Both the position numbers and the translations under genes were made by a program. From Thalassococcus sp. S3 (GTDB taxonomy: Bacteria > Pseudomonadota > Alphaproteobacteria > Rhodobacterales > Rhodobacteraceae), in NCBI RefSeq assembly GCF_004216475.1, contig NZ_CP022303.1, positions 3,968,001-4,032,000 on the forward strand: a DNA stretch of 64,000 nucleotides. Direction: 5' to 3'. The notes beneath the pieces were generated by a model. It was not told where the DNA came from. It made no database searches and saw only the letters and a program-made list of their open reading frames with translations. The number at the start of each line of letters is the position of its first letter. Position 1 is the first letter of the stretch. Positions 1 through 21,730 of this stretch are shown one piece after another.

Positions 1-1162
1 ACCGCGCCGTTTCTAGTCCGGGGCCGAGGGTCTTGGCGTTCAGCTCATCCGCGAGCTTTTGCGAGACCTGCAGACGGATCGGCGTCGGTTCAGCTTCCTC
101 TTCCGACGGCGGGCTCGCTTGGGCGCCTGTGTCCTTGGCACCTTGTTCCTCCGATTTCTCGGTGGCGCCATCAGCCGATCCTGTTTGCCCTGCCCGGTTC
201 CAAGTCAGAAACGTCGCTGCCCCGAAGATGGCGGCAAGCAGGCCAAGGATCGCCGTCGGAAATCCGGGAATGAGACCCAGGGCCATAAGTGCCACGGCGG
301 CAAGCCCCAAAGCGCGCGGCTCCGCGCCAAGCTGGCCGATAATGTCGGCACCCAGGTTGACCTGCGCCTTGCCCGGCACGCGCGTCACGATGGAGGCCGC
401 CGCAAGCGAGATCATCAGCGCGGGCAATTGAGAAATCAGCGCGTCGCCGATTGACAGCAACGCATATTGGCCAATTGCATCCTGCGCCGTCATGCCCCGC
501 TGAACGACGCCGATGGTAATGCCGCCGACCAGGTTGACGAAAATGATGATCAGCCCTGCGATACTGTCGCCTTTGACGAACTTCATCGCCCCATCCATTG
601 CGCCGTAGAGCTGGCTTTCGCGCTGCAGAAGTTTACGGCGGCGGCCGGCCTCCTCGGCATCGATGTCCCCGTTTCGCATCTCTGCGTCGATGCTCATCTG
701 CTTGCCCGGCATCGCATCTAGCGTAAACCGGGCGGCGACTTCGGCGATGCGCTCGGCCCCTTTCGAGATGACCATGAACTGCACGATGGTAACGATGAAA
801 AAGACGACCAGCCCGACCACCACGTTGCCGGCGATCACGAATTGCCCGAAGGTGACAATGATCGCGCCCGCGTCGCCCTGGGCCAGGATCAAACGCGTCG
901 TGGTCACCGAAAGGGCCAGCCGGAAGATGGTAGAGACGAGGATGATCCCGGGCAGGCTGGACAGATCCAGTGCATGCTTGAGGTAGATGGATGTCATCAA
1001 CAACAGGATCGCAACCGCGAAGTTAAAGCCGATCAGCATGTCGACAATCACGGTCGGCATGGGCATGATCATCAACATCACGGTCAAAAAGAGCAGGAGC
1101 GCAAGGGCCGCATCCCGCGCAGTCGCCAGGATGTTGAAGGTCGAAAGAAGCTTGGCCAGCAT
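1..1162 (-). CDS. sctV: T3SS export gate protein SctV, N-terminal part (runs off the left edge)
   Basis: FHIPEP-family inner-membrane component of the T3SS export apparatus; its nonameric cytoplasmic ring receives substrates. Translating the minus strand from the ATG at 1162 gives about 387 residues open to the window edge. Seen: a run of hydrophobic helices from residue ~15 to ~125, then the family's cytoplasmic FHIPEP loop around residues 150-175 (KGAERIAEVAARF, LDAMPGKQMSID), more membrane helices to ~310, and the acidic linker that precedes the C-terminal ring domain. About 300 C-terminal residues are outside the window. The start overlaps the stop of the yscY-like gene (TAATG), so the two are translationally coupled. 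The order yscX-yscY-sctV matches the Yersinia virA operon. SctV versus flagellar FlhA is decided by the neighbours. Confidence 0.95.
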   Translation of the reverse strand, partial: MLAKLLSTFNILATARDAALALLLFLTVMLMIMPMPTVIVDMLIGFNFAVAILLLMTSIYLKHALDLSSLPGIILVSTIFRLALSVTTTRLILAQGDAGAIIVTFGQFVIAGNVVVGLVVFFIVTIVQFMVISKGAERIAEVAARFTLDAMPGKQMSIDAEMRNGDIDAEEAGRRRKLLQRESQLYGAMDGAMKFVKGDSIAGLIIIFVNLVGGITIGVVQRGMTAQDAIGQYALLSIGDALISQLPALMISLAAASIVTRVPGKAQVNLGADIIGQLGAEPRALGLAAVALMALGLIPGFPTAILGLLAAIFGAATFLTWNRAGQTGSADGATEKSEEQGAKDTGAQASPPSEEEAEPTPIRLQVSQKLADELNAKTLGPGLETAR

Positions 1163-1527
1163 TATGGGATCCGACGCCCGCTGATTGCGCCGAAACAGGC
1201 CCGCGCAGCCTCCCTTGCGCCGCTCCGCAGCAGCGTCAGCACATGCAGCACCTGAAATCGGCGGTCCGGTGTGCGAGTGCAAAGCTCTTCGGTCAAGCGA
1301 CAGGCGGCGTCATGGCGCCCCAGCGCCTGATAGGCGCGGGCCAACTGGCCCAGCGCTTCGATGTCTTTCCGGTCACCCGTCAGGGGATGCAGCAGAAGCA
1401 CGGCGCGCGACGGCTGCCCAGCGTTCAAGGCCGCGCCCGCCATCATCAGGATGATATGCCTCTGACGTTCCGAGATCCCCGGCAAAGGGCGCGCGCGACG
1501 CTTAGCGAAAGGGACAACCTTGCTCAC
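1162..1527 (-). CDS. sctY: YscY/SctY-like TPR protein of the T3SS
   Basis: A 121-residue helical protein with TPR-like repeats (residues ~25-110; A-x-L-N-A-G-Q-P and Q-L-A-R-A-Y-Q-A-L-G are typical TPR helices) and a basic N-terminus. In Ysc-type systems YscY (~114 aa) binds YscX and both act with the SctV ring to allow export of early substrates. Support here is length, helical repeat character and position between a yscX-like gene and sctV. The start is a GTG at 1527 overlapping the stop of the upstream gene (GTGA); the stop overlaps the sctV start. Sequence identity to YscY was not measured, so this could instead be a generic small TPR chaperone. Confidence 0.6.
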   Translation of the reverse strand: MSKVVPFAKRRARPLPGISERQRHIILMMAGAALNAGQPSRAVLLLHPLTGDRKDIEALGQLARAYQALGRHDAACRLTEELCTRTPDRRFQVLHVLTLLRSGAREAARACFGAISGRRIP

Positions 1528-1943: not shown

Positions 1944-2921
1944 TCAGTATTCGACTGTTATGAGTTCTCCCTCGAACTCGAATACGGTGCTCGACACCCC
2001 GATCTCCCGGACACGCCAGCCGCTTGGCAAAATCGACCCGGCGTGAAACTGCGACCCGCCCACGGATATGGCGGAACGGTCGCCGGGCCAGACCGCCTCG
2101 ATCCGGGGCGGGCGCAGCTTTTCGGGAGCCGATGGCGCGACGAAACGGGCATGGCTGCGCAGGGCAACATTGGGGCCGTGAACCCGGTCGAACCAATGGC
2201 GCACGCGAAGCCACTCGCCCCGTTTGGTCTCGTCGATCTCTCCTTCGACGAAAAGGGCGTCGTCACGGCGTATCACCGTGAGCCGATCCAGGCCGGATAT
2301 CGCGGTGATGCGTGAAACAAGAGCCTTTTGCGCCTCCTGAAGCTCAACAGTGCGGTCAGGGACCTGCGATGTCTGCTTTCCAGTGTCTGCGGCCAAGGCC
2401 ACCTGTTCCATCGCAGGTCCCGAACGGGTCTCGCGAGGTGATCCATCGACCGGGATCGCGCTGATGAAATGGTAAAGGAAGGCGCCACCAAATCCCGCCA
2501 GCATCGCCGTTACGGGCCCAAGTTGACGCAGCGGACTGGTGAAGCGTGTCGCAGGAGCCGAGGCGATTTCGTTTCTTGGCGGGAGCGTTGACACAGCCGG
2601 TTCGGCAGCCCGCTCTTCAACCTCGCCGAAATGGAGAACGGTTTCACCGATCGTGACCTCGAAAGGGCTTTCCACGTCGATCTCCATACCGGAGGGCAGC
2701 AGACCCCGGCCCGAAAGGGTTAAATCGGCTTCGACAGCGCGAAGCAGGAGGCCGGTGTCCTGAGCAATCAGCGTGAGCGCGTGATCGGGAAGATCGGACA
2801 AGGACAGCACGATGTCGCAGGCCAGCGCGCGGCCCAGGCTTATCCGATCCCGGTCTGCCCAATCGCAGCAGACCCTTGCCCCACGATGGGGACCGGACTG
2901 CACTTGAATTTCGACCGGCAT
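1944..2921 (-). CDS. sctD: T3SS inner-membrane ring protein SctD
   Basis: A 325-residue protein with the SctD domain order: an N-terminal FHA-like cytoplasmic domain (residues ~1-100; R-I-S-L-G-R-A-L near 26-33 is the FHA-type strand), a linker, one membrane helix at ~135-157 (VTAMLAGFGGAFLYHFI), then a periplasmic part with a BON/ring-building domain (~200-265, F-V-E-G-E-I-D followed by W-F-D-R-V-H-G-P). SctD forms the outer ring of the inner-membrane basal body and contacts SctJ and the secretin. It is shorter than the usual ~400 residues, so the periplasmic region has probably lost one ring domain. A GAGG sequence precedes the ATG. It is the third gene before sctV in this operon. Confidence 0.85.
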   Translation of the reverse strand: MPVEIQVQSGPHRGARVCCDWADRDRISLGRALACDIVLSLSDLPDHALTLIAQDTGLLLRAVEADLTLSGRGLLPSGMEIDVESPFEVTIGETVLHFGEVEERAAEPAVSTLPPRNEIASAPATRFTSPLRQLGPVTAMLAGFGGAFLYHFISAIPVDGSPRETRSGPAMEQVALAADTGKQTSQVPDRTVELQEAQKALVSRITAISGLDRLTVIRRDDALFVEGEIDETKRGEWLRVRHWFDRVHGPNVALRSHARFVAPSAPEKLRPPRIEAVWPGDRSAISVGGSQFHAGSILPSGWRVREIGVSSTVFEFEGELITVEY

Positions 2922-4594: not shown

Positions 4595-4656
4595 CTTGAT
4601 CTCCTTTCTGAATGATGTGGCAGTCGCACTTGTCGCGGCTGCCTTGGGTAGCGGCG

Positions 4657-4905
4657 TTAGGTGACGTCGAAGCTGTAAAGCATCGATTTCAGGTTCTGGT
4701 TGGCCTGCCGCTGCTGGATGGCATCCGCATCGACCTCCCTGTCGCCCGCACCGGTGTCGAAGCTGGAGATCAACTGGGCCACAGTATTGACCTGCTGAGC
4801 GCCTGGTACGAAACCGCTGAGCGGACCTGCAACCTTGCCGACCTGACCGGCAAAGTCTTTCACGCCCTCGATGACATCAGATACGATCGGGATCTTGATA
4901 CCCAT
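4657..4905 (-). CDS. 82-aa protein, candidate T3SS rod/needle protein or small substrate
   Basis: First gene of the leftward operon, with a strong AAAGGAG six bases before its ATG. The N-terminal ~30 residues form an amphipathic helix (IPIVSDVIEGVKDFAGQVGK), a Gly/Pro kink follows, and the C-terminal ~25 residues form a polar helix (AIQQRQANQNLKSMLYSF). Small size, no signal peptide, absence of Cys and a helical C-terminus fit inner rod or needle subunits, but no sequence match to SctF or SctI can be claimed. SctI is better assigned to the nolB-like gene at 18794, which leaves this or the 73-aa protein as the needle. The 212 bp upstream, up to the divergent gene at 5118, must hold the operon promoter. 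Confidence 0.5.
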   Translation of the reverse strand: MGIKIPIVSDVIEGVKDFAGQVGKVAGPLSGFVPGAQQVNTVAQLISSFDTGAGDREVDADAIQQRQANQNLKSMLYSFDVT

Positions 4906-8100: not shown

Positions 8101-8126
8101 CCTCTCTGGTCAACAAGCGTCTCTGA
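5118..8126 (+). CDS. 1002-aa protein of unknown family, candidate T3SS substrate
   Basis: No recognised family. Seen: a disordered N-terminus with one hydrophobic segment at residues ~32-48 (PAILLISLLVGIWNGANYI) but no signal peptide; a helical region (~55-370) with long amphipathic helices; a Pro-rich linker (~385-480) with many P-x-P runs; and a beta-rich C-terminal region (~540-1000) with alternating strands and Gly-rich turns (L-A-G-I-G-G-G-F, I-G-E-G-G-F-G). Cys is absent or nearly so. GAAAGAG precedes the ATG. It diverges from the sctD-sctV operon and is followed by a smaller beta-rich protein. Size, modular build and position inside the T3SS locus suggest a secreted effector or translocator; the function is unknown. 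Confidence 0.6.
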   Translation: MSTTPPNLPKPPALVATTYGLDFPGSGVDDLNPAILLISLLVGIWNGANYIGSLPGELGAALRAEVDRQAKLPNHARRNEVERTFDKLAEDPVLQRGTDDHGRTVIKNVFSGEVIVRRASANSVELQAGPGLQAYLASKNPDLAAALKLPAPPVELKDPLQQMTEMSRNLDAALSQPVSPSQPTAPATPAYDPSADQALVRKSFDANALGRNGGIPSEKLTEAVNRLVSAGALSEKDGRYALALRGVTDIQQGADKLIDIQKSVADIGAPQYAGHFTNTGEMKTGLTEVAQRFQGTPLEQRVAEVVALLGRADAVSQARATVQAFAFGQDVPEKAVNDAIHVLKQHDPALASSREYLGLLDALHAKSRNRNEINTGDGGSVNDPNEEAGAQRTPPPIPADHDAWGNPPFGETLPPAATPDPARPGPRPAAPERDPDTIPDFSPPARPGAVPGPVQPVAETQPRPEVVTPDAVAAAPQPSGPPGNNNDDQEPKTIKQKLVDFWATLGADITKDGVGAVGANAIAATSAAVFYGGLKEVRTSTPLTTQNVQAELAKLQAKPDEYIGANYTNEVNLPYIGWSVGDKAGGQSLYNISGHLLQRDNGNGSIDTFRIVPEDMYDTLKELQKSEGIMSDRVFVREQIKDNDGKAVTVWVEIKPPARARLDELVDVSLKAESNENAPGFELSPRLRIGTEFYDFSASLYFGIGPKRKDGEYTARLGMDPNNPSKVIDGDLRYQQTTRLAGIGGGFASNFNSDQIRDLTDPDSLLNGKSAKVGGFGVGADIIGRTRYRLGVIGEGGFGAQLLRAREQIAGVEIGSYPVYVEYDGKQLKKYTEFQIYPLNVKGESGLTNPLKMENYFNKTKPIDFGSLPNAKVGFDVAYQVTTKAKNAGLPELPTIPYPDWETHKPLAGKMAIVGPDRIEAADITVSSDVLWQGQNNEDRSIIDIRLADGKDARYLEYKGQAYIVVPDENAVFKAPVNAYSMSMYSMERVGAQPPSLVNKRL

Positions 8127-9048: not shown

Positions 9049-11106
9049 ATGTATATCAGGCTCGCCGTTTGCGGAGCGCTATGCGCTTTGTTGATCGGGT
9101 GTGATCGCACGGACCCCAATTCCGACAGGCAATCCCAAGCCGATCTGGAAGACTGGAGAGCCCGGACAATCCTGGGCGGTTCGGACCCCGCAAGGGTCGA
9201 CCGACGGGAGGGCCGCATCTTCGGAGCCCGTCGTCAGCGCAATGACAGCGCGTCTCTTTTCCCAGGCCGTCAGCCCATTGTGCGGCAAAGCGAATTTGCC
9301 GACGAAGACGGCGCCGCCCTGGTCGATCTGAACCTCATAGACGTGTCGATCGAAGATGCAGCAAAAGCCTTTATCGGCGACCTGCTCGACGAGAATTACA
9401 TGGTCGATCCTTTGGTCAGCGGCACCATCAACCTCGAATCCGCGCGCCCGGTCACCCGCACGACGGCCATCGAGGCTTTTGAAATCGCGTTGCGCCAGAA
9501 CAATGCAGTACTGGTCCGACGCAACGAAATTTTCACCATCGTTCCCGTGACCGCCGACCTCGCTATCAGTACCTCGACAGCGCGCGACGTTCTTCCCGGC
9601 TATACCCTGCGCGTTATTCCACTGCGCAACATTGGCGCGCAGGAAATGGCGGCCATTCTTGAGCCTTTTGCACAGGATGGAATTGTCGGTATTGATGCGC
9701 AACGCAATATTCTTGTGTTGGCGGGAACGTCGGCGGATCAAAGAAGCTGGCAGGACACGATCAACAGTTTCGATGTCGACTGGCTGGCCAATCGGTCCGT
9801 TGGACTTTTTCCGATCCGGGGCCGCTCTGCCCAATCCATCGTAAACGGGCTGGAGCGTGTGGTTGAATCCGACGAAGACTTTCGTCCTTTGGTCGTGTTT
9901 GAGGTCATACCCGAAAACAATTCAATTTTGGCCGTGGCGAAAACACCCCGCGCCCTGGAGAACATCGCCGTCTGGATCAAGCGGCTTACGCAAGACAGCA
10001 CAAATGACGCCCAGATCTACTCGTATGACATGCGCTATGCGCGCGCCGAAGACATCGCGCCCACCTTGTCACAGATCCTTGGCATCGCGGTTGAAACTTC
10101 GCAAGCGGTGGAAGAACCGGATGATGCTGCCGTTCTTTTCGCCCGCACGAGCAACGACCAAAACGCCACCCGCGTAGTTGCGAGTGCGGCCAACAATACG
10201 CTCCTGATCCGGGCCACACACGACGAATATGAACGTGTTCTGGGAATTCTGCACCGTCTTGACGTACCCCCGCGCCAAGTCCTGGTTGAAGCAACTATTC
10301 TTGAGGTGTCGCTGGACGACAACCTCAGATACGGGGTCCAGTACTTCTTTGAAGGGGGCGACGGTACGATTGGTCTGACACGCGGCAGGCGTGCGACGAT
10401 CAGCCCGGAACGACCCGGTTTCAGCCTGACGCTTGGCGTGCCGGCCAACGTGATCATCGACGCGCTCGACGATGTGACGGAGGTCAACGTCGTATCCTCC
10501 CCCAACCTGATGATCCTGAACAACGAAGCAGCGCGTCTGGTGGTCGGTGACCAGGTGCCGATCGCCACGCAGCGCGCCAATGACCGCTTTGCCGAAACGG
10601 GCATCGCTGTCGAAACGGTCGAGTTCCGCGACACCGGTGTGATTTTCGACGTCACGCCCCGGATCAACTCTTCAGGCACCGTGGTTCTGGACATTCAACA
10701 GGAAGTCAGCTCCGTCGGCCCGAGATCGGGGGAGTCGCTGACGCCTACCATCTCTCAGCGGGTCGTGTCGTCCTCGATCGCCGTCGATACCGGAGAGACC
10801 ATCGTGCTGGGCGGTCTTTTTTCCAAGGAAAACAGTCTTGGCAATAGCGGAATACCCGGTCTAAAAAACATCCCCGTCGCCGGCAATCTCTTTGGGCGCA
10901 CGAACAAGCGGTCGCGGCAAACCGAGCTTTTGGTCCTGATCACGCCAAAGATCGTGAACAATCCGATGGATGCAAGGCAGGTCACGTCGCAGTTAAGGTC
11001 GCGCATCGAAGCTTTTGACGTCGATGACGCCACGCTCCAAGCGAGGATCCGGCCCATGCGCACGGAAAACTCCGCCTTGATCGAAGCGCAGGGAACGGAC
11101 GGTTAG
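9049..11106 (+). CDS. GspD-type outer-membrane secretin lipoprotein, probable T3SS pore (RhcC2-like role)
   Basis: A 685-residue secretin. Seen: a lipoprotein signal with lipobox L-I-G-C (Cys18); an N0-like domain (~80-165); N1-N3-type domains (~175-420, including Y-T-L-R-V-I-P-L-R-N and repeated N-x-I-L-V/A-V/L-A strands); then the secretin core (~425-650), with V-L-V-E-A-T-I-L-E-V, V-V-S-S-P-N-L-M-I-L-N-N and the C-terminal signature TIVLGGLFSKE followed by GIPGLKNIPVAGNLFG and L-L-V-L-I-T-P-K-I-V. These C-terminal motifs are those of type II GspD rather than classical SctC. No other type II genes are nearby. With the nolW-like gene supplying only N-domains, this protein most likely forms the T3SS outer-membrane channel. 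It is convergent with sctU, with 8 bp between the stops. Confidence 0.88.
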   Translation: MYIRLAVCGALCALLIGCDRTDPNSDRQSQADLEDWRARTILGGSDPARVDRREGRIFGARRQRNDSASLFPGRQPIVRQSEFADEDGAALVDLNLIDVSIEDAAKAFIGDLLDENYMVDPLVSGTINLESARPVTRTTAIEAFEIALRQNNAVLVRRNEIFTIVPVTADLAISTSTARDVLPGYTLRVIPLRNIGAQEMAAILEPFAQDGIVGIDAQRNILVLAGTSADQRSWQDTINSFDVDWLANRSVGLFPIRGRSAQSIVNGLERVVESDEDFRPLVVFEVIPENNSILAVAKTPRALENIAVWIKRLTQDSTNDAQIYSYDMRYARAEDIAPTLSQILGIAVETSQAVEEPDDAAVLFARTSNDQNATRVVASAANNTLLIRATHDEYERVLGILHRLDVPPRQVLVEATILEVSLDDNLRYGVQYFFEGGDGTIGLTRGRRATISPERPGFSLTLGVPANVIIDALDDVTEVNVVSSPNLMILNNEAARLVVGDQVPIATQRANDRFAETGIAVETVEFRDTGVIFDVTPRINSSGTVVLDIQQEVSSVGPRSGESLTPTISQRVVSSSIAVDTGETIVLGGLFSKENSLGNSGIPGLKNIPVAGNLFGRTNKRSRQTELLVLITPKIVNNPMDARQVTSQLRSRIEAFDVDDATLQARIRPMRTENSALIEAQGTDG

Positions 11107-11114
11107 CCCGGGCC

Positions 11115-12161
11115 TTATCCTTCTGGAAGCTGTCCAAGGTGGATTGCGCGGGCAACCTCTCCGTAAAGATCAGACGGGACAAGCTGTCCGGGGGCGCATT
11201 TGCTTGCCAACGTGTCGGCCAAAGTGGTGCTGTAATAGAAAGGAGTTGCCCGTTCAAAAGCGGATCGCATGTTCTTCAACGCCGTCTGGTTGGCTGAGCG
11301 GGACACGACCACCGGGATCGGCGTATCGCCTTCGACGTAGCGAATGCCGATGGCGCGTTTCTCGTGATAGATCACAAGGGTCGCTTGTTTGATCCCGAGC
11401 TTCTGCGCCGGGCCCTGGCTCATCTCCCTGCGCAGGCGGTTTTGCTCTTGCTTTATCTCGGGCGATCCGTGGATGTTTTTCTGTTCCATCTTTGTCTCCG
11501 TTTTGGTCATTTTCTGCTGGTCGAGGAAAAGGTGCTTTTGAACCGGCATATCCAGCGCGCCGATGACAAGAACGATGGCCGCCATCGCAAACAGCAGCAT
11601 CTGGGTGAGCGCATGAATGGCCACCAACGTGCAGTCGAGCCCGCACGGCGGAAGATGGATCAGCGTCCCGACAGCGCCGTTCGAGATCACCCAGCACGTC
11701 GCACCCAGCAGAACGAGCTTGAGCAGGGTCTTCACAAAGGCGACGATGGCCATCTTCCCGAAGATGCGCTTCACTCCGGCGATGGGCGACAGGTTCTGCA
11801 AACGCGGCGTCAGCGGGTCGAGCGAGAAGACGATCCCCTGATTGACGACGATCTTGCCAATGATCAATTGACCAACGATCGCGGCCAGGAGCGGGATCAG
11901 CAGGTTCATCGCGACGTTGAGATAAGCGATGGCCAATTCCAGAACGACCGCGTCAAAGGGCTCACTGGCACTGGCGGTCGTCACCACGATGGTTTCTGCC
12001 AGTTCTTCGAAGAGCGCCGGCGCGCGGGCAAGGATCACGGCGATGCCGACAAGAAAGCCCAGACCGATGGAGAGATCCTGATATTGGGCAATTTGTCCCT
12101 TGCCGCGCGCATCCTTCAGCTTTTTCGGGGTGGCGGCCTCGGTTTTCTCTTCGCTGCTCAT
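11115..12161 (-). CDS. sctU: T3SS export switch protein SctU lacking the NPTH cleavage motif
   Basis: A 348-residue FlhB/YscU-family protein. The family N-terminus is present (EEKTEAATPKKLKDARGKGQ, residues 4-23), followed by four membrane helices (~32-46, ~75-105, ~140-165, ~180-205) and a cytoplasmic domain from ~210 (S-P-E-I-K-Q-E-Q-N-R-L-R-R-E-M). In the family this domain normally cleaves itself at Asn-Pro in NPTH to switch substrate class. Here the aligned residues 265-268 are YHEK, flanked by conserved context on both sides (T-L-V-I before, A-I-G-I-R-Y after). The codons read cleanly, with no frameshift. It overlaps sctT by 4 bp and is the last gene of the nolB-sctU operon. Confidence 0.95.
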   Translation of the reverse strand: MSSEEKTEAATPKKLKDARGKGQIAQYQDLSIGLGFLVGIAVILARAPALFEELAETIVVTTASASEPFDAVVLELAIAYLNVAMNLLIPLLAAIVGQLIIGKIVVNQGIVFSLDPLTPRLQNLSPIAGVKRIFGKMAIVAFVKTLLKLVLLGATCWVISNGAVGTLIHLPPCGLDCTLVAIHALTQMLLFAMAAIVLVIGALDMPVQKHLFLDQQKMTKTETKMEQKNIHGSPEIKQEQNRLRREMSQGPAQKLGIKQATLVIYHEKRAIGIRYVEGDTPIPVVVSRSANQTALKNMRSAFERATPFYYSTTLADTLASKCAPGQLVPSDLYGEVARAIHLGQLPEG

Positions 12162-12976
12162 GGCGTCAGCATCCGTTCAAGTTCGAAAAGAACCAGGGCG
12201 CGTGTGGGCAAGGCCTCGCGCATGTAGCCCAGAAGAGTGCTGGCATAGGCCAGAATGAAAACAGCAAAGATCAGGTTCTTGAAGGCAGCGCCCGTGCTTT
12301 GCCCCACCATGTTGGGCGCAACCTTTCCAAGCCCCGCAACGGAGAGATCGGTGATCAGGAACAGAACGATGAACGGTGCCGCCAACGCCATCGCGGACAA
12401 AAACATCAGGTGGATCATCCGGATCAGACCGGAAAAGCTGTCGGTCGTGAAGGCAGGCATGTATCGGTTGAGCGGCCAGATCTCATAGCTGCCGTAAAGC
12501 GCACCCACCAGCGTCTCCATCCCGCCGGACGAGACGAAAAGCGCCAATGCGATAAAGCCGAAAAGGGTTCCCGACGCGGTCGCCTGTGACTTGGCGCTTG
12601 GGTCGTCGGTGTCCGCGTTCACGATCTCGCGCTGTGTGTCGGTGATATCGCCGGCGGCGCGGATTGCAAAAATGGGTGCACCCATGAAAAGGCCCATCAG
12701 CGCGCCCACCGCGGCTTCTTTGAGAGAAAAGAAGGCCACCTGCAAAGGGGAGCTGAGATCGAGGTTCAGCATGTCCACGCTCATCGGTGCCTGAAGCGGC
12801 AAGGCAAGTGCGATGGCAATGGCGCCTTTGGTCGTCCGCCCCAGCTGCACGCGGGTGAAAAGCGGAAAGACAAGCATCAGCCCGTATATGCGCCCCGACA
12901 GCAGGGCAATCGCGCCGATCGGCCCCCAAATCGCTTGCGAGAGCTCGTTGAGAAGATCGAAATCGAACGCGCTCAT
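12158..12976 (-). CDS. sctT: T3SS export apparatus protein SctT
   Basis: A 272-residue FliR/YscT-family membrane protein with about six hydrophobic helices spread over its length (e.g. IGAIALLSGRIYGLMLVFPLF near 18-38). The family landmark N-R-Y-M-P-A-F follows the middle helices. SctT, with SctR and SctS, builds the helical entry portal in the inner membrane. It sits between sctS (15 bp upstream) and sctU (ATGA overlap), the order found in most T3SS operons. Confidence 0.93.
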   Translation of the reverse strand: MSAFDFDLLNELSQAIWGPIGAIALLSGRIYGLMLVFPLFTRVQLGRTTKGAIAIALALPLQAPMSVDMLNLDLSSPLQVAFFSLKEAAVGALMGLFMGAPIFAIRAAGDITDTQREIVNADTDDPSAKSQATASGTLFGFIALALFVSSGGMETLVGALYGSYEIWPLNRYMPAFTTDSFSGLIRMIHLMFLSAMALAAPFIVLFLITDLSVAGLGKVAPNMVGQSTGAAFKNLIFAVFILAYASTLLGYMREALPTRALVLFELERMLTP

Positions 12977-12991
12977 CCGGGCCCTCCACCG

Positions 12992-13264
12992 TTACCGCAC
13001 CATCTTGGGAAAGTCGCGGAAAAGCGTTTCGGTGAACTCCGACAACGGATAGAGCAGCGACCCTCCGACAGCTGCGTAGACCGCGATGACCACGAACAGT
13101 TTGACCGATTGCGGCAGGGTCTGATCCTGGATTTGCGTGGCGGTCTGCAGGATCCCGATGAGAAGCCCGCCAATGATCGCGGCCCCCAGAGGGATGCCGA
13201 TAGCCACAAGAAATATCGAAAGCGCTTCGAAAATCGGAGCGAAAAGGGTCGAGCCGCCCATCAT
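12992..13264 (-). CDS. sctS: T3SS export apparatus protein SctS
   Basis: A 90-residue FliQ/YscS-family protein with two membrane helices (residues ~14-38 and ~52-74) separated by the conserved polar loop containing Q-T-A-T-Q-I-Q-D-Q-T-L. A frame extending further upstream was rejected because it would run deep into sctR; the tandem ATGs at 13264 and 13261 overlap the sctR stop (ATGATGA), giving the normal family length. It forms the export gate with SctR and SctT. Confidence 0.93.
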   Translation of the reverse strand: MMGGSTLFAPIFEALSIFLVAIGIPLGAAIIGGLLIGILQTATQIQDQTLPQSVKLFVVIAVYAAVGGSLLYPLSEFTETLFRDFPKMVR

Positions 13265-13923
13265 TGCGCTCCGGCATAGCTGGTGAGCAGTCCGGTCAGG
13301 ATAAGCGTCCATCCTTCCACGGAGACAAAGAGAAAGAGCTTGAACGGCGTCGAGATGATGCTGGGGGTCACCTGCGACATCCCCATGGCCATCAGGATCG
13401 TGGTGACAATCAGATCGACGGTGACAAAGGGCAGATAAATCAGGAAACCGATCTCAAAGGCCCGCCTGAGCTCGGCCATCAGAAAGGACGGGACGAGGAT
13501 GACCAGTTGATCCGGCGCCGCGCTCAGATCGGCGTCAGCTGGCCAGGCCTGCTGCGCGGCAGAGACGAAAAAGGCCCGCTCCTGTTCCGTCGTCAACGCC
13601 ATCATGAAGTCACGCAGCGGCACCTGCGCGCGCTGAAAGGCGGCGACCCAGGTGTCGAATGACGTAAAATCCGTCCCGCCTGCCTGGATTTCCGTGATCA
13701 TCGCGCTGGCAACCGGCGCGCCCACGAAACCCGTCAGCGCAAGCGCGATGGTGTAAAGCACGATGTTGGGCGGAGTTTGCTGGACGCCAAGGGCGCTGCG
13801 CAGAATGAAAAGAACGACGGCAACCTTCACGAAGGAGGTCGTTGCAAGCACGACAAAGGGCATCATGCCAAGACCCAGAAGGATCGTCAGCATGGTCAGG
13901 ATCGTTGGACCCTGGTCACCCAT
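13261..13923 (-). CDS. sctR: T3SS export apparatus protein SctR
   Basis: A 220-residue FliP/YscR-family protein. Start chosen at the ATG at 13923, eight bases inside the end of sctQ, which gives the usual family length (a longer frame to 14019 lies wholly within sctQ). Seen: an N-terminal pair of hydrophobic helices with T-S-F-V-K-V and L-R-S-A-L-G-V-Q-Q-T-P-P-N (the FliP hallmark), a periplasmic-side loop, and two C-terminal helices with A-F-E-I-G-F, DLIVTTILMAMGM and P-F-K-L-F-L-F-V. No cleavable signal is apparent. It forms the core of the export gate with SctS and SctT. Confidence 0.95.
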   Translation of the reverse strand: MGDQGPTILTMLTILLGLGMMPFVVLATTSFVKVAVVLFILRSALGVQQTPPNIVLYTIALALTGFVGAPVASAMITEIQAGGTDFTSFDTWVAAFQRAQVPLRDFMMALTTEQERAFFVSAAQQAWPADADLSAAPDQLVILVPSFLMAELRRAFEIGFLIYLPFVTVDLIVTTILMAMGMSQVTPSIISTPFKLFLFVSVEGWTLILTGLLTSYAGAQ

Positions 13924-14962
13924 GGTCGCAGAGACGAACGATCTGGACGGCGACCGTATCGCCGATCTGGACCAGCGCCCCCCGGGCAATCCGCCGACCG
14001 TTGGCCAGCAGCGCCACATCGTCCAGCGACAGATCCGGAAGGTCGATCAGCTGACCCGGGCCTAACCGGTCAAGCTCGTTTATGGTCAAGCCGACACGGG
14101 CCACCTCGATCCGCAAGGTGACGGTAATGTCCTCGATCATACCGGTCGGCAGGCTCAGGTCCGCCTCGTCCTCGGTTGATATCTCAGATAGCTGTTCCAT
14201 GCTCCAGGTCTCCTCAACGACAAGCTGCCCCGCCTCAATCCTAACCGGCGCGCACCAGCCCTGCAGGCAAAGCAACCCTTGGTTCGGATGGATCGCCCTT
14301 TGGGGAAGGATGACATCCTGCACTTTAAGCCCCCGCAGATCCGCAACCGGGATCCGGCAGCACCCGATTTCGAGACTGGGGAAAACCGGGATACGGTCCT
14401 TGGCCGTCCCAATCCGATTTGGTCTGGATCGCTTGAAGATCTCTGCAAGCGCACGGGGCGTGTCGCAGATCAGCCTGGTGCTGACTGTCAGGCTCTCGAG
14501 CTGGAACGCTATGCCTTCCACCAGGGACTGATCGGGGGGGTCTGATACCCCGACACAGGTGGTGTGGGACATCGCCTTCGACTCAACACCGGTCAGAAGA
14601 CGGTCGAAAGCTACGTCAATCGTGTGCGCGGCCGTCAGTGGGTCCGACAGGCTCTTCAAGGCCGCCCGCCCGCCTTGGCGCATCACCGCGCCGCGCACGA
14701 GGCGCCAGGGCACATAAAACCCAAGCTCGATGCCCGAGGCCGAAAAGCGCAGGCGACAGGTCTCGGCAACGGGATGGAGGCCCGGCCTGAGCGACGCGAA
14801 GACCTCCAATTCGTAAATCTGTGAGAGGATGTCGCTCAGCACCGAAACACGGGATGCCCGGATTGCGGTCTCCGCGCTCTGGCCCGGCGTCTGCTGTGTC
14901 AGACGGAGCGGAACCGGCTCGCCGAAAGGGAGGCTGGCATGCATCATCACGGGCTGCTCCAT
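13916..14962 (-). CDS. sctQ: T3SS cytoplasmic ring/sorting platform protein SctQ
   Basis: A 348-residue protein ending in a SpoA (FliN-type surface presentation) domain at ~270-345, with V-T-L-R-I-E-V-A-R-V-G-L and a P-G-x-L-I-D-L strand. The N-terminal two-thirds is poorly conserved, as usual for SctQ. SctQ forms the pods of the cytoplasmic sorting platform with SctK and SctL. It overlaps the sctO-like gene by 16 bp and sctR by 8 bp. Many SctQ genes have an internal start yielding a separate C-terminal fragment; a Met at ~residue 273 could serve, but this is not shown. Confidence 0.88.
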   Translation of the reverse strand: MEQPVMMHASLPFGEPVPLRLTQQTPGQSAETAIRASRVSVLSDILSQIYELEVFASLRPGLHPVAETCRLRFSASGIELGFYVPWRLVRGAVMRQGGRAALKSLSDPLTAAHTIDVAFDRLLTGVESKAMSHTTCVGVSDPPDQSLVEGIAFQLESLTVSTRLICDTPRALAEIFKRSRPNRIGTAKDRIPVFPSLEIGCCRIPVADLRGLKVQDVILPQRAIHPNQGLLCLQGWCAPVRIEAGQLVVEETWSMEQLSEISTEDEADLSLPTGMIEDITVTLRIEVARVGLTINELDRLGPGQLIDLPDLSLDDVALLANGRRIARGALVQIGDTVAVQIVRLCDHG

Positions 14963-15450
14963 GACTGATATTGTTCGGCAAGCGCATCATCGGCAGCGTT
15001 GGCCCTTCGGCGGCTCAGCCGGCGGCGTTCCGGTTTGACCGATGTGTCGTAAAACTGGGCGATGGCCTCAGCGGCCCGGCGGGCGGCCTGTTCTTCGATC
15101 TGCGCGCGCTCAAGCGCCTCGCTCGCCTCAGACAGCGCGTCGATGCTTTCTCGAAGCTGATCGGCAGCCCTTATGACGGTCTGCTGTATCGCTTCCAGCC
15201 TCAGGGCAATTCCATGGAACCGCCCGTCCGCCAGCGGTTGACCCGGCAAAGCGCGGTAGAGTTCCGCTTCGGCCTCCTGTGCCTCCCGCCGGGATATATC
15301 CAATTTCTGTCGGTCCTCCGCAGCGACTTGGCTTTGTTTCAGCATGCGCCGCCTTTGGCGCGCCACGGCCCGCTGCGCCTGTTCCGCGCGCCGGATCTTG
15401 AGCCGCTTTAGCTGGTCAGCAGTCTCGATAGTCGCCTCAGACATCGACAT
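14947..15450 (-). CDS. sctO: T3SS stalk protein SctO (YscO/FliJ-like)
   Basis: A 167-residue, highly charged protein that is almost entirely predicted helix, with two long heptad-rich stretches (residues ~15-70 and ~85-145) typical of the antiparallel coiled coil of SctO/FliJ. SctO inserts into the ATPase hexamer and contacts SctV. Sequence is poorly conserved in this family, so the call rests on length, coiled-coil character and its position directly between sctN and sctQ, with a 14-bp overlap with sctN. It corresponds to the y4yJ position of rhizobial loci. Confidence 0.8.
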   Translation of the reverse strand: MSMSEATIETADQLKRLKIRRAEQAQRAVARQRRRMLKQSQVAAEDRQKLDISRREAQEAEAELYRALPGQPLADGRFHGIALRLEAIQQTVIRAADQLRESIDALSEASEALERAQIEEQAARRAAEAIAQFYDTSVKPERRRLSRRRANAADDALAEQYQSWSSP

Positions 15451-16792
15451 TGTTCGAGTTGCCCTCCGCCAGTTGCGACATGATTTGCGCCAGTTGGTCT
15501 CTGGTGTCGGAAAACGCCTGCGGCATGTTCGCGTCCTGAACCAGAAAGGCGCGGATCGCGGGATAGAGCGCGATGGCCCGATCGGCGACAGGATCCGAAC
15601 CAGCCTCGTACTCGCCGCAGCGCACCAGAAACTCCACGTCGCGATACGCCGCCAGCATGCGCCGCAGATCGGCGGCTTCTGTCACATGCTCACGGCTCAC
15701 AACCGCATCCATCAGGCGGCTTCGGCTCCGCAGCAGATCAATGGCCGGATAGTGATTTTCACGGGCCAGCTCTGCGGACAGAACCAGATGACCATCGAGG
15801 ATCCCGCGCACCTCTTCGGCAACGGGATCATCCTCGCCATCGCCTTCCACGAGCACCGTATAAAAAGCGGTGATCGTGCCCTTCGCCGCCGGGCCCGCAC
15901 GCTCTAAAAGGTCAGGCAAGCCCGAAAAGGTCGACACTGGAAAGCCCCGCCGTACCGGGGCCTCACCTGCGGCGAGGCCCACCTCCCGCTGCGCCCGAGC
16001 AAAGCGGGTCAGGCTGTCGATCAGCAGCAGGACGTTCTGCCCCTGGTCCCTAAAGTATTCTGCCACGGATGTCGCGGCATAGGCGGCGAGCATACGTTCT
16101 CCGGCAGGCCGGTCCGAGGTCGACGCCACAATGACGCCGCGCCTGCGGGCGGTATCATCAAGCTGATGTTCAAAAAATTCCCGAACCTCCCGGCCGCGTT
16201 CGCCTATCATGCCAATGACGCAGGTCTGGGCGGTGCATCCCTTCACGATAGAGGCCATGAGCGTCGATTTTCCGCCGCCCGCCTCGCCGAAAATACCCAC
16301 GCGCTGTCCGATAGCGGTGGTTGCGACGGCATCGATGGACCGGACACCCACGGGAAAGGGTTTATCAATGACGGGCCGGCTCATCGGGTCTGGCGCGGCG
16401 GCATGTGCCGACACGTCCCTACCTGATCCCGATATGGGCCCTGCCCCGTCGATCGGCGTCAGTCTCGCATCCACGACCCGTCCCAGAAGATCCGGACCGG
16501 CGCGAAGGGTGAGCCCTTCGCCGCACGGGCGTACCATCGTTTGCGGCCCGATCCCCGTCAGGCTCCCAAGCGGGCTCAAGATCGCGGTATCGCCGGAGAA
16601 GCCGACGATCTGCCCCTCTATCAGCATCTCACCCGCATCGTCGAGCAATTCGCATATCGCACCGATCCTGCCATGCGGGACATGCGCATGAACCACCGTC
16701 CCGCGAACCGCTGTGACCTGGCCAAGCGGGCGACGCGGTTGATGCCGCTCAAGCCTTTCGCTGATTTCCGAGAGAAATTGCGCGCCCGTCAT
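15437..16792 (-). CDS. sctN: T3SS ATPase SctN
   Basis: A 451-residue F1-like hexameric ATPase that unfolds substrates and releases chaperones at the base of the export gate. Seen: an N-terminal beta-barrel domain (~25-90), Walker A GEAGGGKST at 169-177, GMIGERGREV with the catalytic Glu at ~198, Walker B VLLLIDS ending at Asp259, the L-T-R-F-A-R-A-Q-R-E motif, and a helical C-terminal domain (P-A-I-R-A-F-L-V-Q). All catalytic residues are intact. The start overlaps the sctL stop (ATGA). The neighbours assign it to the T3SS rather than to flagellar FliI. Confidence 0.96.
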   Translation of the reverse strand: MTGAQFLSEISERLERHQPRRPLGQVTAVRGTVVHAHVPHGRIGAICELLDDAGEMLIEGQIVGFSGDTAILSPLGSLTGIGPQTMVRPCGEGLTLRAGPDLLGRVVDARLTPIDGAGPISGSGRDVSAHAAAPDPMSRPVIDKPFPVGVRSIDAVATTAIGQRVGIFGEAGGGKSTLMASIVKGCTAQTCVIGMIGERGREVREFFEHQLDDTARRRGVIVASTSDRPAGERMLAAYAATSVAEYFRDQGQNVLLLIDSLTRFARAQREVGLAAGEAPVRRGFPVSTFSGLPDLLERAGPAAKGTITAFYTVLVEGDGEDDPVAEEVRGILDGHLVLSAELARENHYPAIDLLRSRSRLMDAVVSREHVTEAADLRRMLAAYRDVEFLVRCGEYEAGSDPVADRAIALYPAIRAFLVQDANMPQAFSDTRDQLAQIMSQLAEGNSNNVDV

Positions 16793-17394
16793 CGGCTTGC
16801 CCGTGTAGTCAGCGCCGTCTGGATCGCGCGCAATTGTCTGTCAGGGTCGATGGCGATGCGGTCCGGGCCGACTTGCAGGGTAATGGCATTTTTCGGATCT
16901 CCGGGATCGACCTCCAGGGTAATCTGCATCCCCGATGCCATGATTTCAGCGTGGATCGCCTGCCGTATGTCTTCGGGCATCGCGGCCGGGATGCACAGTC
17001 TCATCTCATCCGCCTGCCGATGCTCGGCCAGAGCAACCTTTACGATGCGGCCCAGCCGGTCCGCCTCTGGCATCTCGCCGATCAATTGTCGTGCGATCTT
17101 GAGCGCAAGGGTGATGAGGGCTTCGTCCTCCAGCGTGCGCGCCTGTCGCCACGTTCGCATCTCCTTCAACGCCTGATGGAAAGCCATCTCCATGCCCAGG
17201 CACTGACCGATACGAAACCCCTTCGCCATCGCCCGGAAATATCCCCGCCGGAGCAGCCGTTTGCGATCGCTGAGACGCGCCTCAAGCCGGTTTTTAAGCC
17301 GCGAGACAGAGCACAGATCCGCGATTTCGGCGGCGCGAACAATCTGCCCCGGTTGCGGGGTCGGAACCGTATCGGGCCAATCAAACCGTCTCAT
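16789..17394 (-). CDS. sctL: T3SS ATPase stator SctL (NolV-like)
   Basis: A 201-residue FliH/YscL-type protein. The N-terminal ~90 residues are helical, and the C-terminal half is the peripheral-stalk domain with I-A-R-Q-L-I-G-E-M-P, R-L-C-I-P-A-A and the closing strand L-Q-V-G-P-D-R-I-A-I-D-P. It links SctN to SctQ and restrains the ATPase. The position between the sctK-like gene (14-bp overlap) and sctN is that of nolV in the rhizobial nolBTUV operon. Confidence 0.88.
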   Translation of the reverse strand: MRRFDWPDTVPTPQPGQIVRAAEIADLCSVSRLKNRLEARLSDRKRLLRRGYFRAMAKGFRIGQCLGMEMAFHQALKEMRTWRQARTLEDEALITLALKIARQLIGEMPEADRLGRIVKVALAEHRQADEMRLCIPAAMPEDIRQAIHAEIMASGMQITLEVDPGDPKNAITLQVGPDRIAIDPDRQLRAIQTALTTRASR

Positions 17395-17971
17395 CTCTGG
17401 CCCTTTCAGAAAAACGGTGTGTGACGGCCATCTGAAACGCCTCGATGGCGGCCTCCGTCGGTGCGCAATCGATAGCGGCTGGGCCCCAGATCACGTCAAG
17501 CCACCGCCTGTCCATCTCGGGTTGACCTTGACGCCAAGCCGCTTCCGCAAGCTTGCCCGAACGCTCCACCAGATCCATGACCCCAGTCAGATCCGCAGCA
17601 TGGGTCCCCATGCGTTGGGCCTGGTTCAGGGCAAGGGTCCAGCCATCCGCGCAGATAACCTGCGTTATTTCGGCGATGACCTCCCGATTAAGCAGACCCG
17701 CCAGCGCATCAGCCTGCAGGACCGCACCTGCCAGCATCGCCAGCCCGCTCCGTTCATCTGCTGACATCCGCAGTAGAAATCGGCAGGAGGATGTTGGAGG
17801 GTCCATAAGGTTGTGGCGTTCGCGCAGACGGGACCTGGACAGGCGCTGTAACCGCGCGCTCTGCTCGATCACCGGGCGCGCCCAGGACATCTTCACCGTT
17901 AGTGCATCCAGACAGCACGCCAGATCAATGAGGTCGTCCGGCCCCGAGATGTTTTGCGCAAGCTGGTTCAT
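17381..17971 (-). CDS. sctK: T3SS sorting platform protein SctK (NolU-like)
   Basis: A 196-residue helical protein. Start chosen at the ATG at 17971, which overlaps the sctJ stop (ATGA); a longer frame to 18139 lies within sctJ. Family members are weakly conserved. Visible features are W-A-R-P near residue 33, a long central helix region and a final W-L-D-V-I-W-G-P patch. The position between sctJ and sctL is that of nolU. SctK connects the SctQ pods to SctD. Confidence 0.75.
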   Translation of the reverse strand: MNQLAQNISGPDDLIDLACCLDALTVKMSWARPVIEQSARLQRLSRSRLRERHNLMDPPTSSCRFLLRMSADERSGLAMLAGAVLQADALAGLLNREVIAEITQVICADGWTLALNQAQRMGTHAADLTGVMDLVERSGKLAEAAWRQGQPEMDRRWLDVIWGPAAIDCAPTEAAIEAFQMAVTHRFSERARDETV

Positions 17972-18789
17972 CCGGACACGCCCTCCTGGGTCTTTCGCGC
18001 TTCGGCGATCACCCCGAAATGCGCTTGAGCTGGCAGCGCATTCCCTGTCGACCTTCCATCGTCGGCCTTCCTGCGCACCCGCAGCAACAGCGTGGCCCCG
18101 ATAAAGAGCACCGTGATCAAGGTCGCCGCAAAGGCCCAAAGGGATGCTGGTGTCTTCTTGGCTGCCGGACCTGGCGGCTGAGGCTTTGTCACCGGCTCGG
18201 CCATGCCCTGAACCAGGAAAACCGACACGTTGTCATAGTGAAGGCCTTCGATACTGTTGGCGACGAGGATCTTGATCTCAGGCACCATGTCGCGCAGGTC
18301 GGTCCCTTCGACATGGCGCAGAAACACAGAGGCGGACGCCGCTTCGCGGGGTTTGCCGATGACTTCTTCGGATGGCAGCACCGCATGCACGCGGGCCGAA
18401 AGGACACCATCAATTTCGGAAAGAGTGTGAGACAATTCCTCGGAGATCGCAAAAACCAGACGGGCCCGTTCCTCGACTGGTGAAACGACGAACCCGTCGC
18501 CGGCGAAGACATCGCTCAAGGTTGCATAGCTCTTGCGGGGAAGTCCCCGGTTGTCCAGGACTTCGATCGCCCGGGCGAAATCGTCCTGATGGACTTGCAC
18601 CGTCACCTCGGAAGGGCTGGTAACGACCCGGCTTGCTGAGATGCCGGAGGAGGCAAGCACCGCCACGATTTGGTTGGCATCCCGCTCCGTCAAGTTGGTG
18701 TAAAGATCGGTCTGACAGGCCGAAAGCGCGGCAAGGCACCCCACCATAGCGAGACGACGAAAACGGGCGCATGCGTCAGGGCCGGGCAT
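17968..18789 (-). CDS. sctJ: T3SS inner-membrane ring lipoprotein SctJ (NolT/RhcJ-like)
   Basis: A YscJ/PrgK-family lipoprotein of about 273 residues. Seen: a signal peptide with lipobox L-S-A-C (Cys at ~25), followed by the family motif L-Y-T-N-L-T-E-R-D-A-N-Q-I. Two ring-building motifs follow (~30-90 and ~110-195, with A-R-V-H-A-V-L-P). A single C-terminal membrane helix lies at ~215-238, before a basic tail. Start at the ATG at 18789; a GTG lies one codon upstream. It forms the 24-subunit inner ring with SctD. It is the second gene of the operon, at the nolT position. Confidence 0.95.
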   Translation of the reverse strand: MPGPDACARFRRLAMVGCLAALSACQTDLYTNLTERDANQIVAVLASSGISASRVVTSPSEVTVQVHQDDFARAIEVLDNRGLPRKSYATLSDVFAGDGFVVSPVEERARLVFAISEELSHTLSEIDGVLSARVHAVLPSEEVIGKPREAASASVFLRHVEGTDLRDMVPEIKILVANSIEGLHYDNVSVFLVQGMAEPVTKPQPPGPAAKKTPASLWAFAATLITVLFIGATLLLRVRRKADDGRSTGNALPAQAHFGVIAEARKTQEGVSG

Positions 18790-18793
18790 CACA

Positions 18794-19270
18794 TCAGCCC
18801 TGCGACAGCTTATTGAAACCCTGGCCGGCGGACTTACCGATGCCGATTGCGAAATTCACCAGGTTGGCCTGATTGGCGATCCGGTCGTATCGCATGAGTA
18901 TTTCGTCCGCCGCTGCCAGAGATTCCTTGAAGTCAGGTCCCTTCCGGTCTTCCGGGGACCGCTTTGCGGCATCCTCGGCATTCGGACCGTAAGCGACGCT
19001 CACCTCTGCATCCTGGCTCAGCAGACCGCTCGTCAGGGGCCTTGAGACCGCAAGATCGACGCTGGCGATCGATTGACCGTAACTCCGCATCAGATCACCA
19101 ACCTTGGCGTCTTCTGCCTCCGGATTGCTGAGCGTCTGTTTGGACAGATCTCGCAGATGTTCGGCGAAGGCCGATGCATTCTGGTCTTTGGGTTCGATAT
19201 TCTGATCGCTCACAGGCTCGTTGCCCGTGAGCGCCGATGCGCCTTCAAGTCCCATGACATCCCCGATCAT
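18794..19270 (-). CDS. sctI: T3SS inner rod protein SctI (NolB-like)
   Basis: First gene of the sctI-sctU operon. Start chosen at the ATG at 19270 (158 aa), preceded by GAAG; a longer frame reaches 19402 but would overlap the divergent nolW-like gene. The N-terminal ~100 residues are polar. The C-terminal ~50 residues are helical (E-I-L-M-R-Y-D-R-I-A-N-Q-A-N-L-V-N-F), with the Asn/Leu-rich end helix typical of SctI rod proteins. NolB of rhizobia has similar length and the same position beside nolT. SctI anchors the needle to the export gate. Confidence 0.75.
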   Translation of the reverse strand: MIGDVMGLEGASALTGNEPVSDQNIEPKDQNASAFAEHLRDLSKQTLSNPEAEDAKVGDLMRSYGQSIASVDLAVSRPLTSGLLSQDAEVSVAYGPNAEDAAKRSPEDRKGPDFKESLAAADEILMRYDRIANQANLVNFAIGIGKSAGQGFNKLSQG

Positions 19271-19401
19271 CGTAGCTTCGCCGGGAAGGTATGAATGCAG
19301 TCTTACGGCAACCTGACAGCATTCAAGCTGGCGGATCCGGACACCGTTCCCTAGGCTCGGCATGATATCCGAGCAAACGTTCCCAAGGGGGCTGTTGAGC
19401 A
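19271..19401. promoter_or_regulatory. Divergent promoter region of sctI operon and nolW-like gene
   Basis: This 131-bp gap between divergently transcribed operons must carry promoters for both. No sequence matching the rhizobial tts box could be recognised by eye, and no strong inverted repeat stands out. Confidence 0.4.
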
Positions 19402-19986
19402 ATGCGATATGCGAGTTTGATCCGGCACGGGCTAAGACATCTGGCTGTCATGACCTGCCTCATACAAACGGCCGATGCGGCCCCCCTGCCCGACGGTGAC
19501 CCTGTCTCGCTGGCGATCATTCATCAGGATGTGAAGGATGTCCTTCAGGATTTCAGCCTGAGGATCGGCATACCCATCGGCGTATCGCCCGATGTCTCAG
19601 GCATTGTCCGTGATCTGAAAGGTTCGTTCGCGCCACGGGACTTTCTGGATAGGCTGAGCACACGGCACAAGCTTACCTGGTACTATGACGGCGATATCAT
19701 CCATGTCACGCCCGTGTCTGCCAATCGCACCCTGCTGATCGAATTGGGACTTGGCGATTTCGACGCCCTGGCACGTACTCTGAATGATCTTGAGATTGCC
19801 GATGACCGCTATGTCGTGCGCCGGACACCGGATGCCCGCGTCGCGCGGCTGTCAGGGCCACCGGCCTTCGTAAATCTGGTCGAAAAGACCGTGGGTGTCC
19901 TTCCCTCTTCAACACCCAAGCCGCCCGCTGCGGTTCAAAACCCTCCCACAGTTCCAAGCCGGCCACGCTTCTGCATCGGCTGCTAG
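19402..19986 (+). CDS. rhcC1: Split-secretin N-terminal subunit (NolW/RhcC1-like, SctC N0-N1 domains)
   Basis: A 194-residue exported protein: a signal peptide with a probable cleavage after A-D-A near residue 26, then the SctC N0 domain (~35-105, with D-V-L-Q-D-F-S, G-I-P-I-G-V-S-P-D-V-S-G and the SctC hallmark L-T-W-Y-Y-D-G-D-I-I-H-V) and an N1-like domain (~115-165). The protein ends soon after, with a Pro-rich tail and a final C-I-G-C, and has no secretin pore domain. This is the architecture of rhizobial NolW/RhcC1, which is likewise divergent from nolBTUV. It probably contacts SctD and works with the separate secretin at 9049-11106. Confidence 0.85.
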   Translation: MRYASLIRHGLRHLAVMTCLIQTADAAPLPDGDPVSLAIIHQDVKDVLQDFSLRIGIPIGVSPDVSGIVRDLKGSFAPRDFLDRLSTRHKLTWYYDGDIIHVTPVSANRTLLIELGLGDFDALARTLNDLEIADDRYVVRRTPDARVARLSGPPAFVNLVEKTVGVLPSSTPKPPAAVQNPPTVPSRPRFCIGC

Positions 19987-20094
19987 GCTGCGGGCGTCAG
20001 GCTTTGGTCAGATGCCTGTGTTCAACTCAGAACGGAGCGGTGACGCATGACCGTTCGGCACATTACGTCTCATGATCAGAGCCAGGAGGAACCA

Positions 20095-21692: not shown

Positions 21693-21730
21693 ATAGTAGA
21701 AAATAACAAATCACGCCAACGGGGGCTAAT

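Follow-up and report, generated by a model that had tools for sequence, protein, structure and literature searches.

The stretch of DNA analysed here, 64,000 nucleotides of contig NZ_CP022303.1 from Thalassococcus sp. S3 (hereafter, the window), carries a type III secretion system (T3SS) locus whose main operon ends with sctU, the gene for the switch protein of the export gate. Autocleaving FlhB/YscU proteins possess an NPTH motif with its Asn-Pro pair (NP), and this pair is absent from the window protein, which reads YHEK at the corresponding position:

11115..12161, minus strand: SctU, the export-gate switch protein, intact and without NPTH (348 amino acids, PF01312)
11358..11369, minus strand: YHEK codons (residues 265-268) at the NPTH autocleavage position, tat cac gag aaa from 11369 to 11358

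The initial annotation, made from the sequence, had placed an intact SctU at these coordinates without stating its strand, and both the position and the integrity of the gene are borne out: the frame of 348 codons has zero internal stops, and PF01312 covers residues 4-340 at 239 bits, that is, the whole protein. The best NCBIfam model is that of SctU itself, TIGR01404, at 238.9 bits (under its cut-off of 358). YHEK was also correctly assigned to residues 265-268 at the NPTH position, as the right-flank anchor AIGIRY, equivalent to the canonical AVALRY, puts it there. The further claim of an alignment without gaps holds locally, when anchored on this right flank, but not over the wider segment. 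In pairwise comparisons with eight NP-type proteins the window SctU is one residue shorter near the motif; five of these alignments place the gap one residue behind the tetrapeptide, the other three, in which the motif segment is gap-free, have gaps further upstream, and MAFFT also puts a one-residue gap within the motif segment. As there is no Asn-Pro at the site, the chemistry of Asn cyclisation is impossible there and, as had been argued, switching must be done otherwise or be absent.

The short segment is the one feature that could suggest a sequencing or alignment artefact, an explanation to which we give practically no chance. The alignment with relatives that had been proposed as a check was run, and the closest protein, P0002, which is 76% identical and comes from another source, has YHEK as well, so YHEK is not a sequencing error. 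The next relatives (P0003-P0008) are equally devoid of Asn-Pro, with IGTK, RGRG, FGPG, YGAR, FGQN and RGTA, and the reading frame runs uninterrupted to the stop of the gene. Together with the clade-wide pattern described next, P0002 already refutes this explanation.

For the wider comparison, 219 SctU/FlhB sequences were collected, and 136 were kept after dereplication at 80%; the samples were capped at 80 of 531 related loci, 65 proteins out of 7998 scored candidates and 30 family-search loci. Before tree building we removed the frame-shifted L150, 25 rows of the protein set (all NPTH) and 12 of the 15 FlhB rows of L020-L034 (all NP), dropped L151 (a duplicate) and P0050 (a long branch, NPTH), and added six rows. 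The resulting 102 rows, 60 without Asn-Pro (NP-less) and 42 with it, were used for a maximum-likelihood tree from which the motif columns were excluded. The window protein groups with the Rhc proteins, in a single clade of 54 NP-less rows (support 100/99, recovered in 200/200 bootstrap trees, 100%), and is nested there in a starred set of seven rows (99/98). The other six NP-less rows, of Thiotrichales type, form a second clade (100/99). As all 60 NP-less rows sit in one or two clades, the loss of NP is not a matter of chance. Among the fetched loci, NP-less proteins belong to the systems of Bradyrhizobium, Mesorhizobium and Sinorhizobium (Rhc-I and relatives), to the T3SS-2-like systems of Pseudomonas, Stutzerimonas and Salinicola (Rhc-II) and to most Rhodobacterales systems, the subgroup names following PMC3574062. 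NP is kept in Vibrio harveyi, V. jasicida, two Oceanospirillales-type systems, two Rhodobacterales systems, as well as in the flagellar-type proteins. Five of five further plasmid records are NP-less too.

Asn-Pro occurs in the motif segment of 0/60 NP-less rows, any Asn is absent from it in 57/60, and the clade shows such diverse variants as RGTA, TGRA, YHEK, VGQS and GTTDG. Because all flagellar-type rows used have NP, we infer that the NP-less state is derived. A Pro near the second motif position persists in several Rhc-II rows, the Phyllobacterium SctU has GDPG, and the SctU of Paracoccus kondratievae pKON1 (L195, 8986-10008) has AAPH, resembling a half-eroded NPTH; these look like remnants of the motif. 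The pKON1 locus has a single small open reading frame (ORF) between its ATPase and SctQ-type genes. On the sequences compared, the lack of Asn-Pro seen in the window SctU is thus a fixed trait of a large clade and not a private oddity.

Two further observations concern the family. In five loci (L142-L146, in genomes G398, G400, G396, G397 and G394) matches are confined to the last quarter of PF01312, starting near the NPTH position, and look like free-standing FlhB C-terminal-like proteins, none of which was found in the window genome. Such a fragment as a substitute for the cleaved domain was rejected for Thalassococcus, since its genome (5.0 Mb, 4 contigs) has just two PF01312 places, sctU and a flagellar-type FlhB with NPTH. 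Besides this, residues 173 and 177 of the window SctU (codons 11631-11645, minus strand), in the loop between membrane helices 3 and 4, form a CGxxC-like Cys pair that is present in 97% of NP-less rows versus 21% of NP rows and is possibly a periplasmic disulfide.

The trait is shared by a system that is known to work. In Sinorhizobium fredii NGR234, the motif segment of RhcU is ATLVYRGTAVLIGLRY (RGTA at the site), with no NP, and the SctU of its second T3SS, AVLLIGEEGAVSVGIRY, has no NP either. NGR234 secretes NopA, NopB, NopC, NopX, NopL and NopP, its rhcN mutant is described as secreting no Nops, and one table lists NopX as a probable translocon subunit, NopP as a probable effector and NopC as linked to the pilus (PMC10970691). 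Like the window, the Rhc-I locus of NGR234 (pNGR234a) combines the absence of NPTH with the same surrounding gene order, a split secretin with a NolW-type C1 piece and a SctO-position ORF directly before sctQ. By contrast, the two SctU proteins are only 33% identical, NopX is present in NGR234 and was not detected in the window (where phmmer gave no match for NolB either), and the secretin neighbouring the window sctU is GspD-like. The remaining T3SS features of the window are as follows:

12158..12976, minus strand: SctT (TIGR01401 at 153.8 bits, cut-off 163.05)
12992..13264, minus strand: SctS (start inferred inside ORF 12992-13312; match to NGR234 SctS at 5.5e-18)
13261..13923, minus strand: SctR (start inferred inside ORF 13261-14019; TIGR01102 above cut-off)
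13916..14962, minus strand: SctQ (TIGR02551 above cut-off)
14947..15450, minus strand: SctO-type small ORF following sctN, assigned by its position; no substantial family match
15437..16792, minus strand: SctN ATPase (TIGR02546 best, 544.8 bits, cut-off 604.75; TIGR01026 above cut-off)
16789..17394, minus strand: SctL (weak profile matches only)
17381..17971, minus strand: probable SctK, by position only; no family match
17968..18792, minus strand: SctJ (TIGR02544 above cut-off)
18794..19402, minus strand: probable SctI, by position only; no family match
19402..19986, plus strand: SctC1, a separate N-terminal secretin piece (TIGR02516 at 1.1e-22 over its first 132 positions; NGR234 NolW at 9.9e-28)
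9049..11106, plus strand: GspD (type II)-type secretin, candidate SctC2 (TIGR02517 at 414.8 bits, cut-off 351.35)
1944..2921, minus strand: SctD with a Y4YQ-type C-terminal domain (PF23893 and PF21934 above cut-off, TIGR02500 below)
1..1282, minus strand: 5′ part of SctV, with about 940 further bases left of the window

The operon therefore reads sctI-J-K-L-N-O-Q-R-S-T-U, with I, K and O assigned by position only, and the divergent SctC1 at its head gives the split secretin of the rhizobial Rhc family, whose layout (PMC3574062) is that of the window. The secretin at 9049-11106, which scores only 100 bits as an SctC, may be an orphan GspD recruited as the outer-membrane ring of the T3SS; no GspE above the cut-off was found in the window genome (best 63 versus 630.25). 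Close relatives of this secretin in two other genomes (G402 and G221) lie on contigs other than that of sctU. The GspD type of this neighbour, together with the failure of phmmer to find a NopX-like translocator in the window, could suggest that the T3SS is decaying and that YHEK is a symptom of lost function. Against this very improbable explanation, the core genes have kept their full length and their order, P0002 retains YHEK at 76% identity, and the trait is common to the working NGR234 system.

The absence of a ruler protein (SctP) goes along with that of NPTH. The lack of SctP/HrpP between SctO and SctQ is a trait of the Rhc family (PMC3574062), and in the window the SctO-type ORF overlaps sctQ, leaving no room for SctP. 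SctN and SctR lie 1465-1810 bp apart in 79 of 79 NP-less loci, which fall into 40 clusters. In six NP loci, forming 4 clusters, the distance is 2196-2956 bp; one Vibrio harveyi locus is represented twice among these six, as L102 and L164. Two more NP loci measure 2155 and 2866 bp, so that, duplicates included, eight of eight NP loci exceed the NP-less ones; loci with a truncated sctN were left out of this count (L150 with 786 bp and L161 with 1565 bp, NP-less; L165 with 1924 bp, NP). The extra ORF of the NP loci was matched by the YscP model TIGR02514 in four of six cases, above the cut-off in L102 and below it in L181, L109 and L113, which in turn exceed the cut-off of Pfam HpaP; that of L163 is FliK-like, below the cut-off.

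In 28 genomes searched, TIGR02514 had no place within any NP-less T3SS locus. A ruler encoded elsewhere in the Thalassococcus genome was also considered and rejected. PF02120 gave four matches there (one above the cut-off) and TIGR02514 a single one, below its cut-off; none lies in the T3SS locus, and the best place for both, at 115.6 kb of contig C1, is 12 kb from the flagellar-type flhB. In one Thiotrichales-type locus whose ORFs were read through (L179), no ruler-sized ORF follows SctO directly on the same strand, and the ORFs ahead of sctQ (400 and 466 amino acids) were rejected as rulers, both being transglutaminase-domain proteins. These tandem ORFs (3494-4696 and 5220-6620, plus strand), just before sctQ, are candidate secreted proteins.

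It could be argued that SctU is uncut but switches allosterically and reversibly, on a signal from an unrelated Rhc protein by which the pilus is measured. The existence of unrelated rhizobial analogues of SctP has been raised (PMC3973906), and several window ORFs adjacent to the T3SS belong to no family above cut-off: 5118-8126 (plus strand, 1002 amino acids), 23842-27798 (minus, 1318), 3278-4594 (minus, 438) and 20047-20715 (plus, 222). However, none of these four has a relative at 1e-4 in 18 related loci, nearly all of them T3SS neighbourhoods, and we regard an unrelated ruler as rather improbable; the ORFs are candidate secreted proteins. Also close to the T3SS, a response regulator and a histidine kinase (21018-22687, plus strand) have strong matches inside the T3SS neighbourhoods L035/L148 and L153 of the same comparison set and are possible regulators of the window T3SS; an AraC-type regulator follows them at 22944-23825. 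Farther away, a cluster on the minus strand (34739-45005) encodes a SWIM-type protein (just under the cut-off), a VWA/CoxE protein, a DUF5682 protein, a MoxR-type AAA ATPase and a DUF4132/HEAT protein.

The gatekeeper SctW shows a similar pattern. PF07201 was found in six of the 28 genomes (G326, G142, G601, G394, G396 and G399), the very six that carry an injectisome SctU of NP type. Of the PF01312 places read in the remaining 22 genomes, all either lack NP or belong to flagellar-type FlhB, the latter assigned by tree position or sequence rather than by neighbours, and weak partial places in G054 and G147 were left out; the completeness of G147, G142 and G022 in this search is 73%, 84% and 85%. 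Among 394 genomes of the same family only two, G326 and G142, have PF07201, and they are the two with NPTH/NPVH, while the window genome gave no match. The absence of SctP and SctW from Rhc systems was already tabulated in 2012 (PMC3574062), where blanks are not always absences: SctP is also blank for enteropathogenic Escherichia coli, for which a ruler, EscP, is reported. The idea of a lone odd gene, implied by the initial annotation, is consequently not supported, as the loss of NP is lineage-wide and common to the working NGR234 system, and as SctP (mainly by gene order) and SctW are absent alongside.

A second site of SctU points in the same direction:

11205..11222, minus strand: LADTLA codons (residues 314-319), the LARxLY equivalent, computed from residue numbers

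In Xanthomonas, the HrcU Y318D mutant, altered at the Tyr of LARxLY near the PTH loop, again allows late export when the ruler is missing; it is cleaved less and no longer binds the ruler HpaC or the early substrate HrpB2. YscU Y317D is reported to restore a yscP mutant (PMC3040844). In the window this Tyr position is occupied by Ala319. More generally, Tyr, Phe, Trp or His is found at this column in 39 of 42 NP rows (Tyr in 21) and in only 5 of 60 NP-less rows (Tyr in none). The window SctU thus resembles these mutants in its altered Tyr; in contrast, they are laboratory mutants that keep NPTH, whereas the replacement is natural in the window and in most of the clade.

Taken together, we put at roughly 0.7 the probability that, in the Rhc-type and Rhodobacterales clade, SctU autocleavage has been lost and there is no canonical switch from early to late substrates. 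In the mechanism that we propose, SctU of this clade would never be cut and would remain one continuous chain, its cytoplasmic domain adopting from synthesis a conformation that lets pilus or needle proteins, translocators and effectors pass alike. Any order of export would then be set by gene regulation, by chaperones or by the affinity of the substrates, and not by a length ruler that sets off an irreversible cut, and the Rhc-type SctU would represent a natural, fixed bypass state: uncut, permissive for late substrates and with no partner to answer. Going further, we lean slightly towards the view that a whole major family of working injectisomes lacks autocleavage, ruler and gatekeeper, with an SctU that is natively permissive, a state to which other systems come only through self-cleavage or a suppressor mutation.

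The window protein retains the fold of its family. The AlphaFold2 model of the window SctU (mean predicted local distance difference test score 88.7) has four long predicted membrane helices (28-66, 69-107, 136-167 and 175-215) followed by a cytoplasmic domain predicted to have the EscU/YscU fold, with a hairpin (strands 262-265 and 269-274, turn 266-268) at the motif site. Foldseek gave a target TM-score of 0.88 to EscU (3bzs) and matched the YscU, Spa40 and FlhB domains too; its top eight matches are motif mutants, which is due at least in part to the deposition of cleaved structures as two separate chains. The window SctU therefore has its Pfam family and cytoplasmic fold in common with the autocleaving FlhB, YscU, HrcU, EscU and Spa40, and differs from them by lacking Asn-Pro and by a genome in which SctW finds no match and none of the ruler matches falls in the T3SS locus. 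In the piece after the site, the ratio of nonsynonymous to synonymous substitution rates is 0.11-0.26 in six of eight pairs, 0.58 in one and not computable in one; although these pairs exclude the window gene and synonymous rates are saturated in several, the codon comparisons indicate purifying selection on the last SctU domain in most of them.

This conservation also speaks for a rival explanation, in which a host protease cleaves SctU of the clade, or the cut has moved to a different peptide bond, so that a two-chain SctU and a cleavage-dependent switch would persist through another chemistry. Likewise in favour of cleavage elsewhere, Shigella Spa40 N257A still produces a fragment, a different one of 15 kDa, and a few members of the clade have possibly labile residues, such as the GDPG of Phyllobacterium. 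Against it stand the complete lack of Asn-Pro and near-complete lack of Asn in the segment, the free variation of the tetrapeptide, which argues against a specific recognition site, and the fact that the switch partners SctP and SctW were likewise not found. We thus consider a persisting cut improbable.

Apart from the Spa40 fragment, several observations weigh against the loss of cleavage and switching that we favour. Uncleavable Spa40 is impaired in Shigella, where the export of translocators and early effectors is lowered and no pores are formed, ruler deletion included; the Rhc domain must therefore differ in ways that AlphaFold2 does not show. In fact, the modelled NPTH control P0012 (NPTH at 263-266) has the same hairpin (strands 259-263 and 267-272), which rules out a special hairpin as a structural signature. 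Furthermore, the candidate SctP of the NP locus L168 is convincingly matched by neither ruler model nor by any other family, so the ruler models are not sensitive to all rulers, and it is mainly gene order that speaks for the absence of SctP. Nor is SctW strictly tied to cleavable SctU: two of the three Hrc2 systems in Table 1 of PMC3574062 have SctP but an empty SctW entry, and an Hrc2 record that we fetched has NPTH and sctP, while its annotation over the stretch includes no SctW. At the bypass column, Tyr itself is found in only four of 16 injectisome NP rows, the rest having mostly Phe, His or Trp and, in two cases, Met. Finally, the quick tree places the origin of the 60 NP-less rows in one change and the careful tree in two, with a single origin not rejected by the approximately unbiased test (p 0.414), and the association of traits therefore rests on one or two evolutionary events.

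NPTH has been called conserved in all homologs, from an alignment of seven systems of which none is rhizobial (PMC4875606), and substrate switching has been said to require its cleavage (PMC7064499). Losing the motif Asn or cleavage reduces or abolishes late export or virulence in Shigella, Erwinia and Xanthomonas (PMC4875606, PMC3040844), although the Xanthomonas authors consider that efficient cleavage, rather than the cut itself, is needed (PMC3040844). In the open-access literature, to which our search was confined, we found no statement that RhcU lacks NPTH and no paper pairing RhcU or Bradyrhizobium with NPTH. What is new here is the link of the missing SctP and SctW to the SctU motif, as their absence itself has been known since 2012 (PMC3574062).

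A well-studied symbiont that exports several classes of substrates with an NP-less SctU is a natural counter-example to the universality of NPTH and its cleavage, and switching by a cleavage step may consequently not be universal among injectisomes. Cleavage would be tied to the ruler rather than to export as such, and its purpose becomes testable because there are SctU proteins that evolved to function without it. If the wider view of a family without any canonical switch is true, the type III export gate can do without the switch module, which would be an accessory whose parts were lost together, on one or two occasions.
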